This document shows, piece by piece, positions 8,255 through 20,251 of a DNA stretch of 20,674 nt. How positions within the stretch are numbered: position 1 is the first letter of the stretch; each line of letters starts with the position of its first letter. The stretch covers positions 1 to 20,674 of IMG/VR virus record IMGVR_UViG_3300025112_000242; one strand, given 5' to 3'. The notes beneath the pieces were generated by a model. That model saw only the letters and a list, made by a program, of their open reading frames with translations, was not told where the DNA came from and did no database searches. Position numbers and translations under genes: made by a program. This DNA is from a virus.

Positions 8255-8359
8255 CCAGCTCTGCACCGGAGTCCAGCTCCCTGCCGGACGAAGGTTAGCA
8301 GGTTCTAAAAGTTTAATGAAACGTGCAACGTGGAACGTCGAACGTGGAACGAGAAACGC
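8255..8359 (+). repeat. Composite repeat 5: GC-rich block plus heptad array
   Basis: CAGCTCTGCACCGGAGTCC and CAGCTCCCTGCCGGACG blocks, then from 8311 seven exact 7-mers: GTTTAAT, GAAACGT, GCAACGT, GGAACGT, CGAACGT, GGAACGA, GAAACGC. This is the cleanest copy, without phase drift. Confidence 0.9.
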
Positions 8360-8385
8360 CGGGCTCATGCTCCGGGCTCACCCGG
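8359..8385. repeat. Direct repeat and short palindrome at the VRR-NUC stop
   Basis: CCGGGCTCA occurs twice (8359-8367 and 8372-8380). The second copy continues into CCCGG, forming CCGGG-CTCA-CCCGG, a 5-bp GC stem with a tetraloop. It overlaps the TGA of the VRR-NUC gene and could stall leftward transcripts; no U-run follows. Confidence 0.6.
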
Positions 8386-8749
8386 ATGCGCAGAGGTTCA
8401 ATAGTTTAACGAGACCCGACGCGTCGTCCGAGGAACGTGCAACGAGCTTCACGGCTCCCGGCTCCTTCACCCTGAGAAGTTTCAGGCCTCGATGCTTGAC
8501 CCCCGAGGCCAAGAAAAACGAGCTTCCACCATGCTTTTGATATTTGAGATGCCAATTAATTTGCCACTTAGATATGCCATAATTCTTGAGATCATTTGAT
8601 TTTAATTCCACCCAAAATACTTTCCCATTCATAGCACAAAACACATCAGGTATTCCATTAATTGTCTTAGATTCTACGCGAAAAAAATAACCTTTTATGT
8701 TTAAATTTTTGATTCGTTTCCAGAGTTTTGATTCCCTCTTTAGAGCCAT
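8378..8749 (-). CDS. VRR-NUC domain nuclease
   Basis: A 123-aa stand-alone VRR-NUC (PD-(D/E)XK superfamily) protein. Visible active-site signature: GIPD at 32-35, VELKS at 47-51, and Q63 in the following helix (KWQINWH), with an N-terminal helix containing E6. Such phage nucleases cleave branched or single-strand-containing DNA during recombination or repair; substrate here is not deducible. The conserved fold seems to end near residue 95 (LLRVKEPG). The remaining residues (KLVARSSDDASGLVKLL) are encoded by heptad array 6, so the native C-terminus may have been replaced by repeat DNA. It lies 29 nt downstream of the cytosine methyltransferase and is probably in the same operon. Confidence 0.85.
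   Translation of the reverse strand: MALKRESKLWKRIKNLNIKGYFFRVESKTINGIPDVFCAMNGKVFWVELKSNDLKNYGISKWQINWHLKYQKHGGSSFFLASGVKHRGLKLLRVKEPGAVKLVARSSDDASGLVKLLNLCASG
8404..8452 (+). repeat. Heptad array 6, inside the 3' end of the VRR-NUC gene
   Basis: Exact 7-mers from 8404: GTTTAAC, GAGACCC, GACGCGT, CGTCCGA, GGAACGT, GCAACGA, GCTTCAC. It has the same orientation as arrays 1-5 but lies within coding sequence, supplying the last codons of the nuclease. Confidence 0.8.
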
Positions 8750-8778: not shown

Positions 8779-9681
8779 TCAATCAAAATTAAACTCAACT
8801 TTCATTATTGCTTTACCGATTTCTTCCGCAATTTGCGGGACGATAGCATTGCCCAATCCTTTAAGTCTGTGTGTCCTGCCTTGTACCCCATCAGCCACTC
8901 GACCCACGTCGGGTTCAATGTTCCACCAATTGTGTTGGTTAATACTGCTACTGACTCTTCCAGCTTCGCTCCTAAAAATCCTCTCCTCTCCACTCTCTTT
9001 TTTAGATTGATTGATTTTTCTGACATTGCTCCCGATGCTCTTGGAGTCGGCCATAATCTTTTCTCTCTCACTTGATCGTGCAACCGAATCTGAATCGGCT
9101 GACCACTTGGTCTCTTGAAATGCCCCTGATCCAATGCTTTCTTTATTCCTGGAAGATTGCTGCCCCCTGATAGTGCGTCGGGAGTTCGCCACAATCCAGA
9201 CCCTGTCTCTGCGATGCGGGGCACCGACGCCTGCAGCTGGAATAATAAACGATTGTGCTTCGTAGCCTTCATTTGCCAAGTCAAGGTGCATACGTTCGAA
9301 AACCACGCCGTCTTGGATGTTAATAAGGCCTCGCACATTTTCAATAATGATCCACTTGGGGCTAAAGTCTTGGATAACTCTAAACATCTCTGGCCAGAGA
9401 TGTCGGTTGTCATCGGTTCCTTTTTGTTTTCCTGCGACACTGAATGGCTGGCACGGCACGCCACCTGTAATAACTTCAGGTAGTTCGCATCCGTCTTCTT
9501 CAAATTGTCGTTTGGTAATTTCTCGGACATCGTGATATATTTTAACATCCTTCCAATGCTTCTGTAAAACTAATTTACAATATTTATCTATCTCACAAAA
9601 AGCAACTGTTTTAAATCCTGCTCGTTCAAGTCCAATACTGAACCCACCAATACCACTAAATAGGTCTAAGGTCTTTAACAT
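8779..9681 (-). CDS. dcm: DNA (cytosine-5) methyltransferase
   Basis: A 300-aa C5-MTase transferring a methyl group from S-adenosylmethionine to cytosine. Motif I LDLFSGIGGFS (5-15), motif IV GGVPCQPFS with catalytic Cys77, motif VI ENV (114-116), motif VIII RRDRVWIVA (157-165), and motif IX/X RTHRLKGLGNAIVPQI (269-284). The region between VIII and IX (about 167-255), where the target recognition domain sits, is short, Ser/Lys-rich and of low complexity (SADSDSVARSS, MADSKSIGSN). The ATG at 9681 is preferred because motif I starts immediately; it overlaps the gcrA end by 26 nt. A GTG at 9738 would add 19 residues. The same DNA carries a second open frame (see 8805-9413). It could be self-protection against host restriction or control of regulator binding, being next to gcrA. 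Confidence 0.93.
   Translation of the reverse strand: MLKTLDLFSGIGGFSIGLERAGFKTVAFCEIDKYCKLVLQKHWKDVKIYHDVREITKRQFEEDGCELPEVITGGVPCQPFSVAGKQKGTDDNRHLWPEMFRVIQDFSPKWIIIENVRGLINIQDGVVFERMHLDLANEGYEAQSFIIPAAGVGAPHRRDRVWIVANSRRTIRGQQSSRNKESIGSGAFQETKWSADSDSVARSSEREKIMADSKSIGSNVRKINQSKKESGEERIFRSEAGRVSSSINQHNWWNIEPDVGRVADGVQGRTHRLKGLGNAIVPQIAEEIGKAIMKVEFNFD
8805..9413 (-). CDS. Alternate-frame ORF within dcm (LWPTP/LNPTWVEWLMG-type protein)
   Basis: A 202-codon frame lying entirely inside dcm on the same strand. The ATG at 9413 (MTTDISGQ) has AAAAAGGAAC just upstream; the frame is open back to 9548. The product contains SGSLLKMCEALL (20-31), LTWQMKATKHNRLLFQLQ (44-61), LWRTPDA (74-80), LWPTPRAS (120-127) and GGTLNPTWVEWLMG (163-176). 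I recognise this pattern (LTWK.K.T..R.LFQL, repeated LWPTP, LNPTWVEWLMG) as a protein type that recurs beside or within phage and bacterial cytosine methyltransferases. It may be a real overprinted gene or a ghost translation of conserved dcm DNA. Function unknown; low-to-moderate confidence. Confidence 0.35.
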   Translation of the reverse strand: MTTDISGQRCLELSKTLAPSGSLLKMCEALLTSKTAWFSNVCTLTWQMKATKHNRLLFQLQASVPRIAETGSGLWRTPDALSGGSNLPGIKKALDQGHFKRPSGQPIQIRLHDQVREKRLWPTPRASGAMSEKSINLKKRVERRGFLGAKLEESVAVLTNTIGGTLNPTWVEWLMGYKAGHTDLKDWAMLSSRKLRKKSVKQ

Positions 9682-10036
9682 GTATTTGTGAGAAGTGTGC
9701 TTTACAATATGAAGTATGGTTCCACCTTTGTCTTCCACAAAAAAGGTGTGGATCAGTGTTTTCTTTCCATAATGGAAACCTACAATGAATATCCTTTAAG
9801 TCTTCCAATAAAGTAGGATTTGCGGGACCTTCTATTACCACTGGTGTCGCAGGCACAATCGATCGTTTAACTCCCCGTACAGCGCCCTGTTTTCTTGCCA
9901 CAAGATTAAGTCGGTTTGCTTTTCCAATAACCGAATTTTTAGTGGTACCCAATGCTTGAGCAATTTCAGAAGCTGGACAACCTTCGTCCCACATTTCGCT
10001 TAATTTATTTAATTTATAATTTGTCCAGGAGATCAT
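9656..10036 (-). CDS. gcrA: GcrA-family transcriptional regulator
   Basis: 126 aa. The N-terminal helix-turn-helix SWTNYKLNKLSEMWDEGCPASEIAQALG.TKNSVIGKANRLNL (3-45) matches the GcrA start. The C-terminal part has C85-R-F-P, FCG (C100) and SYC..H (C111, H114), matching the Cys-rich end of GcrA. In Alphaproteobacteria GcrA binds sigma70-RNA polymerase and activates promoters with GANTC sites methylated by CcrM. The ATG at 10036 is chosen because the domain starts there; the frame extends farther upstream without homology. It overlaps the upstream gene by 23 nt and dcm by 26 nt, so regulator and methyltransferase are co-expressed. Likely role: redirecting host or phage transcription. Confidence 0.88.
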   Translation of the reverse strand: MISWTNYKLNKLSEMWDEGCPASEIAQALGTTKNSVIGKANRLNLVARKQGAVRGVKRSIVPATPVVIEGPANPTLLEDLKDIHCRFPLWKENTDPHLFCGRQRWNHTSYCKAHFSQIHVKDLRPI

Positions 10037-10376
10037 TTCTAGTAGTACCTTGAGGACGGCCACGTTTAGTAGCCCCCATCCGATAGTGTGAAGTAATAGG
10101 GACGTCCACATTCCAACCCTTACCCCGCAGTATATATTTACGCATTTTTTGTTGAACATAATCAGGGTCTCTTCCTGCCATTTCACAAACATTTCTAAAA
10201 TGGGTGCCTCCTTTAATAAAGAAAGCACACGCCTGATCACGCTCAATTCGACTAGGCCCTTGAACAACATCTAAAGCTGCTCTACTAAGAACCGACACCC
10301 ATAACTCTTGTTCAGGAAGGCTCACTCGACCTAGCCCTTCATCAAAACTTTTGATGTTTTTATTTAATCCTCTCAT
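10014..10376 (-). CDS. Putative DNA-binding protein, paralogue of the 11843-12283 product
   Basis: 120 aa. Residues 20-82 (PEQELWVSVLSRAALD ... HFRNVCEMAGRDPDYVQQKMRKYI) align with residues 17-81 of the protein at 11843-12283: Q..LW..VL..AL.D, then F..(V/I)C...G.DP..V. The pattern is helical and helix-turn-helix-like. The C-terminal tail contains KRGRPQG, an AT-hook-like core. The start lies 6 nt behind a strong -10, suggesting a leaderless mRNA. It is the first gene of the unit running into gcrA and dcm; a regulatory role is inferred from context. Confidence 0.75.
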   Translation of the reverse strand: MRGLNKNIKSFDEGLGRVSLPEQELWVSVLSRAALDVVQGPSRIERDQACAFFIKGGTHFRNVCEMAGRDPDYVQQKMRKYILRGKGWNVDVPITSHYRMGATKRGRPQGTTRNDLLDKL

Positions 10377-13019: not shown

Positions 13020-13673
13020 TTATTTCTGCACGACTTCGTACTTAACATTTTCAGGCATTTCAGTTAACGAAATACTATCCAGAGCATTCCCTGCTACCGA
13101 TATACGTTCACAGGGGCTAACAAAAGGAGCTACCGAATGTTTCAAGCTGGCAGGAAAGACAAAGATGTCTCGCTCTTCAGGAAAATGAGACTGATAAGTA
13201 ATAAACTTTCTTCCTCCTTCTCCATAGGTAAACATAATACTACCTGGACCTCGAGAAGTTCCTACATATTCCTTATTCTCTTGTTTCAAGGCTTCAGGAA
13301 TCTTTAAATAAATAACAAAGCTCAAAGCTTCCGAATGATCGTGGACAGGATTATATTCGTATTGTTTTTGAAAGTTAACCCACAGAGATTTTAAAAGATA
13401 CTTAACAGGTTCATCCTTCAAGTCCCCTGTAAAGTTTTTCCAAGCTCCGTGATAAAGATGAAAGATGGGATTAAGGAAGGTTTCGAACTTCTTTCGATCC
13501 ATCGCATACTCTTCTCTAATATGCCCCGCTAGGTTAGAGCGGTAATCCCTATTCGAGCTGCGACTGATGTAGGCATGCTCGAGTAAATCTTTATGAAAGG
13601 CTTCACTGATTTTAAAACGAACCACACAGGGTCCCCAGTGAAAGATATGAATAGGAATATTAGGAGGTTTCAT
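13020..13673 (-). CDS. 2-oxoglutarate/Fe(II)-dependent oxygenase-like protein
   Basis: 217 aa. The double-stranded beta-helix signature is visible: NPVHDHSEALSFVIYLKIP (108-126) supplying H111/H113 and D112, then KHSVAPF (178-184) with H179 and ERISVAGN (189-196) with R190 as likely 2OG-carboxylate ligand. Such enzymes hydroxylate proteins, nucleic-acid bases or small molecules using 2OG, O2 and Fe(II), and are frequent in marine phages; the substrate cannot be read here. The start overlaps the SET gene stop by 4 nt (ATGA), so the two proteins are made together. Confidence 0.82.
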   Translation of the reverse strand: MKPPNIPIHIFHWGPCVVRFKISEAFHKDLLEHAYISRSSNRDYRSNLAGHIREEYAMDRKKFETFLNPIFHLYHGAWKNFTGDLKDEPVKYLLKSLWVNFQKQYEYNPVHDHSEALSFVIYLKIPEALKQENKEYVGTSRGPGSIMFTYGEGGRKFITYQSHFPEERDIFVFPASLKHSVAPFVSPCERISVAGNALDSISLTEMPENVKYEVVQK

Positions 13674-13984
13674 ATTTTATAAAAGGTGTAGTGCACGGTA
13701 AGTTCTTCACCCGCTGTGATATTATGCACCGTAACCAAGTTCCAATATTTGTGAGGGTAATTAGGTTTATCTTCATACGTTGATCTTAATTCTACTTTTA
13801 CACAATTCGGTTCATTGGCATGATTAATAAATCCCCCTAAAGGAGTTCTAAGAATATGTTCTCCAATTTTAATATGACAGGTTCCCAAGTTTGTTCCTTG
13901 AGCAATACCTTCTTTGGCAAACAGACCGAGTCCATTTATCTTGGAAGTCTTAATAGTAAGGGTCTCAGGAAGAGGTTTGTACAT
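13670..13984 (-). CDS. Minimal SET-domain protein (putative lysine methyltransferase)
   Basis: 104 aa that are almost wholly a SET fold: SKINGLGLFAKEGIAQG (14-30), GGFINHANEPNCVKVE (50-65) corresponding to the RFINHSCxPN motif, and NITAGEELTVHYTFY (88-102) corresponding to GEELTxDY with His at the usual Asp. The S-adenosylmethionine and pseudoknot elements are present but the SET-I insert is very short and no post-SET Cys cluster exists. AAGGAAGAAACTG provides the ribosome site. SET proteins usually methylate lysines; the target may be a host or phage protein. Coupled to the 2OG oxygenase. Confidence 0.85.
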   Translation of the reverse strand: MYKPLPETLTIKTSKINGLGLFAKEGIAQGTNLGTCHIKIGEHILRTPLGGFINHANEPNCVKVELRSTYEDKPNYPHKYWNLVTVHNITAGEELTVHYTFYKI

Positions 13985-19508: not shown

Positions 19509-19745
19509 TCATTCAATAGTTAAACCATTATCTAAAACAACCTTATCCTCTGTCTCTATCCAAACTCTAGCTCCACAAGGTAAAGGTTTAGTTGGTTTAT
19601 AAACTAATTTAGATTTTCCTAGAATATCAACTTCGTGTGCATAGTTATTAGACTTACTTGTTTTAACAGTTATAACTGGTTTGTTTGTTCCGTATTTTTT
19701 ATTATGACGAATATGGTGCATATTAACGTGAATTTTTTTTTTCAT
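19509..19745 (-). CDS. Conserved phage hypothetical protein, 78 aa
   Basis: ATG shares one base with the Dam-like gene stop (TAATG). The pattern KKIHVNMHHIRHNKKYGTNKPVITVKTSKSNNYAHEVDILGKSKLVYKP then PLPCGARVWIETED is one I have seen in other phage replication regions; predominantly beta. Function unknown. Confidence 0.8.
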   Translation of the reverse strand: MKKKIHVNMHHIRHNKKYGTNKPVITVKTSKSNNYAHEVDILGKSKLVYKPTKPLPCGARVWIETEDKVVLDNGLTIE

Positions 19746-20251
19746 TATTTGTTTCTAAATATCACAATCATTAAAGGTTTAATATAAGCAATTTTTTTAA
19801 GGTTATCTGGGCTGCCATCATCCTTTCCGAATCTAAAACCTTTTACTGGCTTTTTTAAAAATCGGATTTCACAATTAGGATTAGTGTAAATAAAATCATG
19901 GAAGTATTTAGTATGGGTTGACGCAGGTAGTAAAAAAACACCTGTAAAATTTCTAGTATGATAAGCTTTTTCTACAAACTTTCCTATCTTGCCATCAAAC
20001 AAAGGGTGAATATAGGCTATCTCTTTAGACCAATCTTTCGTTAAACAGTCATCTTGAATAGTGTAATATCTAGGGAGTAAATGATTTTTATCGGAGGCAC
20101 AGCAGTCAATGGTGAAATCAAATTCTTTAGTTAAGTCGGCCCATATAGTTTTAGGGGTTCTTACCCATTCCATTACCTTTGAAGTTTGAAAAGACAACTG
20201 GTTTTTTTGATGCTTTAATTTTTTATTTATTTTCCTCATCAGGCTTCGCAT
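19745..20251 (-). CDS. Dam-like N6-adenine methyltransferase family protein (PF05869-type), altered catalytic motif
   Basis: 168 aa. Fold signature: VMEWVRTPKTIWADLTKEFDFTIDCCASDKNHLLPRYYT (26-64), DDCLTKDW, then FLLPASTHTKYFHDFIY (106-122) and IRFLKKPVKGFRFG (128-141). Where the family usually has (N/D)PP(Y/F), this protein reads IHPLFDG (81-87), so the motif that normally positions the target adenine amino group is not standard. It may be a marine-phage variant that still works, or a protein that only binds. The ATG at 20251 has AAGGA about 10 nt upstream; 20239 is an alternative. Confidence 0.8.
   Translation of the reverse strand: MRSLMRKINKKLKHQKNQLSFQTSKVMEWVRTPKTIWADLTKEFDFTIDCCASDKNHLLPRYYTIQDDCLTKDWSKEIAYIHPLFDGKIGKFVEKAYHTRNFTGVFLLPASTHTKYFHDFIYTNPNCEIRFLKKPVKGFRFGKDDGSPDNLKKIAYIKPLMIVIFRNK

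Follow-up and report, generated by a model that had tools for sequence, protein, structure and literature searches.

A gene overprinted on a viral cytosine methyltransferase gene probably encodes the second subunit of a two-polypeptide enzyme

The multispecific C5-methyltransferases of Bacillus phages contain tandem target-recognition domains (TRDs), exchangeable modules that are present in variable numbers between motif VIII and motif IX. An overprinted enzyme subunit of the kind described here is known, to our knowledge, from one E. coli system of 1995. The smaller subunit (beta) of that enzyme, M.EcoHK31I, is reportedly likewise read from an alternative frame within the gene for the larger subunit (alpha). 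M.EcoHK31I is a YGGCCR C5-methyltransferase of E. coli (Lee, Kam & Shaw 1995). Its larger polypeptide contains motifs I-VIII and X, its smaller polypeptide contains motif IX alone, and the predicted TRD was assigned to the larger subunit (PMC3404938). M.AquI (CYCGRG) is also a C5-methyltransferase made of two polypeptides, and its smaller subunit contains the distal variable region together with motifs IX and X (PMC3404938).

We analyzed a C5-methyltransferase gene in a stretch of viral DNA of 20,674 nucleotides (IMG/VR record IMGVR_UViG_3300025112_000242, positions 1-20,674). We refer to this whole stretch as the window, and all coordinates are those of the window. The initial annotation of this DNA had pointed to a 202-codon reading frame, with its own ATG and an AAGGAA site, inside the methyltransferase gene (there called dcm), and had left undecided whether it was a real overprinted gene or a widespread ghost frame. 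The frame is present and lies within a longer one that is also open. We refer to the methyltransferase gene as alpha and to the overprinted gene as beta. The features of the locus are as follows.

8779..9681, minus strand: alpha, C5-cytosine methyltransferase; ATG at 9681 (possible GTG at 9738), stop at 8779; PF00145, E 2.7e-53.
8805..9530, minus strand: beta, overprinted +1-frame gene; 241 amino acids from the ATG at 9530, alternative starts at 9548 and 9413; based on a match to phrog_1008, a frame open and conserved among relatives, and frame-specific N/S.
8805..9413, minus strand: the 202-amino-acid form of beta in the initial annotation; AAGGAA at 9417-9422 precedes the ATG, which is not conserved in relatives.
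9643..9669, minus strand: alpha motif I, LDLFSGIGG, almost invariant in alignment A4.
9451..9453, minus strand: codon for the catalytic Cys in alpha motif IV, PCQ; invariant in A4 and aligned with the PCQ of HhaI.
9196..9216, minus strand: alpha motif VIII, HRRDRVW (A4), where phmmer homology with HhaI stops.
8920..9138, minus strand: alpha segment where a TRD would be expected, predicted to be disordered (pLDDT < 50, residues 182-254); the beta frame here encodes most of the TRD-like cassettes (N/S alpha 4.90 vs beta 0.48).
9054..9191, minus strand: beta cassette B, WRTPDALSGGSNLPGIKKALDQGHFKRPSGQPIQIRLHDQVREKRL, from a family with 33 members among viral betas.
8919..9053, minus strand: beta cassette D, WPTPRASGAMSEKSINLKKRVERRGFLGAKLEESVAVLTNTIGGT, from a family with 26 members among viral betas.
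8883..8918, minus strand: motif-IX-like element of beta, LNPTWVEWLMGY, near-invariant in alignment A3 and register-for-register with canonical motif IX.
8815..8856, minus strand: alpha motif X, LGNAIVPQIAEEIG (A4); helix 282-297 with pLDDT ~90, synonymous constraint down again to ~1.1-1.2.

No stop interrupts the +1 frame of alpha over 254 codons, a stretch that includes the 202-codon frame at 8805-9413. The third frame contains 20 stops. When the codons of alpha were redrawn synonymously according to the codon usage of the window, 11.1 +/- 2.7 stops were expected in the inner frame, with a minimum of 2 in 5000 redraws. Permuting alpha's own synonymous codons gave an expectation of 7.3 +/- 1.8. 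The alternate frame overlays the TRD and motif IX segment of alpha exactly as had been described: alpha MADSKSIGS is read as LWPTPRAS in the inner frame, and alpha IEPDVGRVADGV is read as TLNPTWVEWLMG.

Several other features of the window were noted. A homologue of the GcrA cell-cycle regulator (9656-10054, minus strand; PF07750, E 1.3e-19) is directly upstream of alpha and overlaps its start. Just 3' of alpha is a small nuclease-like gene (8378-8749, minus strand) with weak similarity to Hjc resolvase that was below our cut-off (E 0.007), and downstream of alpha there is an unexplained near-repeat stretch at 8316-8480 (AACGTGCAACGTGGAACGTCGAACGTGGAACG...). Neighbouring genes at 13020-13984 (minus strand) encode a 2OG-Fe(II) oxygenase (PF13759) and a SET-domain protein (PF00856), and positions 19745-20251 encode a Dam-type adenine methylase (PF05869).

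We found the same nested arrangement in many other loci. Using the inner frame as query, we found at least 580 relatives in viral contigs. In the best viral loci, the alpha methylase was always in the same register, the inner frame was open between its own stops, and the third frame had 8-37 stops. In bacterial genomes, a scan identified 80 loci, all of them +1-nested; judging by record titles, they represent at least eight phyla. The architecture is also present in E. coli prophages. In the collected set, 179 of 183 loci satisfied a filter for length and +1 nesting. Because the viral-contig and bacterial-scan loci had been retrieved with the inner frame as query, we additionally fetched loci with only the motif I-VIII region of alpha. 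All of the complete loci obtained in this way had an open inner frame and the motif LNPx[WF]V[EA][WF]LMG; two further loci were cut by contig ends and two lacked the region. Whole-genome searches covered two phyla, with matches in 5 of 395 genomes of one and 24 of 398 of the other. Here 39 of 40 loci were +1-nested, and the remaining one was a weak match of 47 residues. In a control set of 29 ordinary C5-methyltransferases, the +1 frame had 5-24 stops and none contained LNPxWVEW. There was no free-standing beta among the loci collected or the whole-genome matches; every clear match was nested +1 in an alpha. The idea that beta also occurs as an in-frame part of alpha was rejected, as no such case was found.

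Some loci had unusual structures. In KT997847.1 (L087), the part of alpha containing motifs I-III is in the frame of beta, the rest is in the usual frame, and the two parts are annotated as two genes. Either the record is wrong or the frameshift is real. In two others (L117 and L136), alpha is interrupted or changes frame near its 3' part and beta is still open. A Roseovarius chromosome (OX638333.1) has the alpha/beta locus at five places with identical match scores (L123-L127), which may reflect a prophage present in several copies or an error of assembly.

Coding constraint switches frame after motif VIII. Among close relatives, it is on alpha before this point and on beta across the TRD/motif-IX segment. 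Position 1 of an alpha codon is position 3 of a beta codon. In 51 independent close pairs, the difference rates at alpha codon positions 1, 2 and 3 were.073,.034 and.230 before the overlap, and.237,.121 and.119 from motif VIII to motif IX. We also compared counts of nonsynonymous and synonymous differences (N/S) by frame. For alpha in viral pairs, N/S rose from 0.22 ahead of the overlap to 0.43 in III-VIII and 4.90 in TRD-IX. The corresponding values were 4.71, 3.21 and 0.48 for the inner frame, and 8.0, 9.2 and 5.0 for the third frame. These values are for viral pairs only, and bacterial pairs were computed separately. For bacterial and prophage pairs, N/S in TRD-IX was 1.35 in alpha, 0.78 in the inner frame and 6.44 in the third frame, indicating that both alpha and the inner frame are constrained there. 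In addition, the identity of synonymous codons in alpha was near expectation before the overlap, 1.3-2.5 times expectation over most of the overlap, and 1.1 past the stop of beta. In one group of loci (L203-L210), alpha EPDVGRVADGV had decayed and beta LNPTFVEFLMGFP was intact, a case in nature of drift in one frame beneath the other.

The initial annotation had hinted at constraint acting through the other frame. This holds for the TRD/motif-IX segment and fails before motif VIII, where alpha carries it. Two outcomes had been named that would refute a real inner gene: substitutions only at third positions of the dcm frame, and frequent stops in the alternate frame of relatives. Neither was found. 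In the TRD segment, as the rates given above show, substitutions did not gather at third positions of alpha, and the inner frame was free of stops in relatives.

Alpha contains motifs I-VIII and X, as does the larger subunit of an M.EcoHK31I-type enzyme. Its catalytic domain has the same fold and motifs as M.HhaI and M.HaeIII, which are single chains with their own TRD and a canonical motif IX. In contrast, alpha has no canonical motif IX, and EPDVGRVADGV is found at that place. Its similarity to M.HhaI and M.HaeIII stops at motif VIII (phmmer for HhaI). In an AlphaFold2 model of alpha, pLDDT was 87-98 for most of the core and ~90 in the motif-X helix (residues 282-297), and the core matched the HaeIII/HhaI fold (~169 columns, E 1e-14). 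The pLDDT was below 50 for residues 182-254, between the core and this helix. Where a TRD would be expected, alpha has a weakly constrained spacer that the model predicts to be disordered.

The C-terminal end of beta has a motif-IX-like sequence, (G)GxLNPxWVEWLMGFP. In the sole hhalign alignment, LNPxWVEWLMGFP was placed register-for-register on canonical motif IX, RxLTPREcARLxGFPd (P 0.0085). The probability was only 4.7% because the match is 16 columns long. Beta matched phrog_1008 over residues 17-229 of 247 (E 6.3e-23), as did the betas of five relatives. This family is labelled 'DNA methyltransferase', and the label is silent on beta as a non-catalytic partner encoded in an inner frame. 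Sequence searches with beta in Pfam, NCBIfam and PDB gave nothing significant. A model of the beta monomer was poor (pLDDT 65, pTM 0.34) and a fold search with it gave no match; with a model of such low confidence, the search was uninformative. A weak fold alone is expected if beta needs a partner. Since beta did not fold confidently alone, a TRD fold has not been shown.

Upstream of LNPxWVEW, beta has one to five modules, each starting W-x-T-P. The cassettes in 71 betas from viral contigs belonged to about 17 multi-member families and were found in more than 40 arrangements, that of the window being B-D. The cassette array spans beta between FQL and LNPxWVEW (L001-L080). Any exchange of cassettes has to involve both reading frames at once. 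As in the multispecific phage methyltransferases, these are exchangeable, recognition-like modules that vary in number and lie between motifs VIII and IX. Unlike those, they are in the other frame and on a separate polypeptide, and they are recognition-like by position only. The constraint in viral pairs and the disorder of alpha suggest that recognition is located in beta rather than in alpha, without support from a TRD fold or binding data. Viral pairs point to beta, bacterial pairs are constrained in both frames, and the fold of beta is unresolved.

The start of beta is uncertain in the viral group. The ATG at 9413, taken as the start in the initial annotation, is probably not the main one: in 47 viral relatives the codon at this position was AAG in 18, ATG in 11 and GTG in 8. 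The inner frame has further ATGs upstream, at 9530 and 9548. An ATG near 9530 was present in 38 of 44 viral relatives (vs 25.9 expected) and, judged from sequence alone, is the most regular candidate. An ATG at the D-V motif of alpha was ruled out as a universal start (ATA 68, ACA 36, ATG 27). Many Firmicutes loci have a textbook internal start for beta, AAGGAG followed by ATG (e.g., ACAAAGGAGAGTTTTTATG), just ahead of EQLTLF. The inner protein begins M-x(5-7)-E-QLTLF, often with AAGGAG before it, in many of L092-L171 and L085-L091 (e.g., L103 and L094). QLxLF is the published consensus for binding to the bacterial sliding clamp (PMC11139829). It was present in the betas of 29 of 58 bacterial and phage loci, vs 0.60 expected from synonymous recoding, and in those of 4 of 46 viral relatives. 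It is absent from the beta of the window, which has NLKKTDANYLKLLQ at that place. In many cellular, mostly Firmicutes, betas the peptide might hold the enzyme at the replication clamp. This is inferred from the motif, and there are no clamp-binding data.

We infer, with a probability of roughly 0.82, that the locus encodes both subunits of a two-polypeptide C5-methyltransferase of the M.EcoHK31I type; there are no data on expression, binding or activity. We further infer that beta supplies motif IX, and our results suggest that it also provides target recognition through interchangeable W-x-T-P cassettes. The initial annotation, in considering a real gene, had not recognized its product as the motif-IX/TRD subunit of the same enzyme. 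Ribosomes would begin alpha at its own start and read the whole overlap, which has to remain free of stops in the alpha frame for motif X to be reached. They would begin beta at an internal start inside alpha. Alpha would contribute AdoMet binding and the catalytic Cys, beta would dock into the gap in alpha and contribute DNA recognition and motif IX, and the heterodimer would methylate the phage genome. It is possible that beta is a specificity subunit built of interchangeable cassettes that phages swap to alter or add targets, that the alpha segment is only an open, disordered linker, and that many cellular betas are tied to the clamp by an N-terminal QLxLF. We offer this fuller version tentatively and would not give it even odds.

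As in M.EcoHK31I, there are two polypeptides, one with motifs I-VIII and X and the other with motif IX. M.EcoHK31I belongs to a restriction-modification system, whereas no restriction enzyme was recognized beside the methyltransferase gene of the window. In addition, its published TRD is in alpha, whereas constraint and predicted disorder put that of the window in beta, and the account of M.EcoHK31I in PMC3404938 makes no mention of the cassette arrays or QLxLF starts found here. Unlike M.AquI, the window locus keeps motif X in alpha, and its two genes overlap almost entirely.

Could the inner frame be an untranslated ghost, open only through the residues of alpha and codon bias? Much of what the inner frame encodes upstream of the TRD is dictated by motifs IV, VI and VIII, which are conserved in alpha, and the inner N/S of 3.21 in III-VIII of viral pairs is close to unconstrained. 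However, 0 stops were observed vs 11 from synonymous recoding, and the ordinary C5-methyltransferases (n=29) have 5-24 stops in the +1 frame and no LNPxWVEW. Alpha EPDVGRV may be lost while beta LNPTFVEF persists, and for the TRD-IX segment a ghost is refuted by the inner N/S of 0.48 vs 4.90 in alpha. The frame-specific pattern of substitutions and the decay in L203-L210 indicate that a ghost frame cannot account for the data, and we give it almost no weight. Thus, of the two options in the initial annotation, frame-specific substitutions and the absence of stops support the overprinted gene.

If the inner frame is translated, it need not make a separate beta. The main rival, which is not excluded, is a transframe product: a +1 shift near motif VIII and a shift back before motif X would give a single chain with I-VIII, TRD, IX and X. 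Such a chain requires constraint to pass to the inner frame near motif VIII and to return to alpha at motif X, and this is what is observed. But two precise shifts would be needed, alpha is free of stops even through its weakly constrained segment, synonymous constraint from the inner frame starts well upstream of motif VIII, and many Firmicutes loci have the internal AAGGAG and ATG ahead of QLTLF. We consider the single chain improbable. A separate beta might instead be an independent protein (a methylase regulator or inhibitor, a clamp-binding protein or a host-takeover protein) that merely shares DNA with alpha. Its lack of a confident fold alone would fit, as would the clamp-like QLxLF of many relatives (29/58 vs 0.60 expected), which is not a methyltransferase motif. 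Against this, beta was never seen without alpha, it holds the motif-IX-like element that alpha is missing, and alpha itself lacks a TRD fold. M.EcoHK31I, as far as a title cited in PMC3404938 (ref. 18) indicates, is a tested precedent that requires both proteins. We regard an unrelated function for beta as quite improbable and favor the two-subunit enzyme. Its role is likely protection of phage DNA from host restriction, because no restriction enzyme was recognized beside the gene.

The inner frame is already listed in some phage records, for example as 'g55 internal gene' in Paenibacillus phage Shelly. Two methyltransferases are annotated in K1G and in Xanthomonas phage PhiXhv-28, and another record has an 'Mte8-like protein'. 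In the E. coli RefSeq loci examined only alpha was annotated, and one was marked as a pseudogene. A literature search found no paper on this overlap as a family, which is weak evidence given its limited coverage. Enzymes of this kind have a precedent in M.EcoHK31I. The aspects that appear to be new are the wide distribution, the switch of constraint between frames, which places recognition in beta, the cassettes, and the QLxLF start.

Our results indicate that a subunit in an overlapping frame is a common architecture across hundreds of phages and bacteria, mostly unannotated. Since beta is unannotated in the E. coli loci and has no Pfam or NCBIfam model, recoding cloned 'dcm' genes would silently destroy the enzyme. 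For the study of overlapping genes, the family also offers a clean natural test case: constraint visibly changes frame inside one gene, and cassette exchange seems to affect both frames simultaneously.
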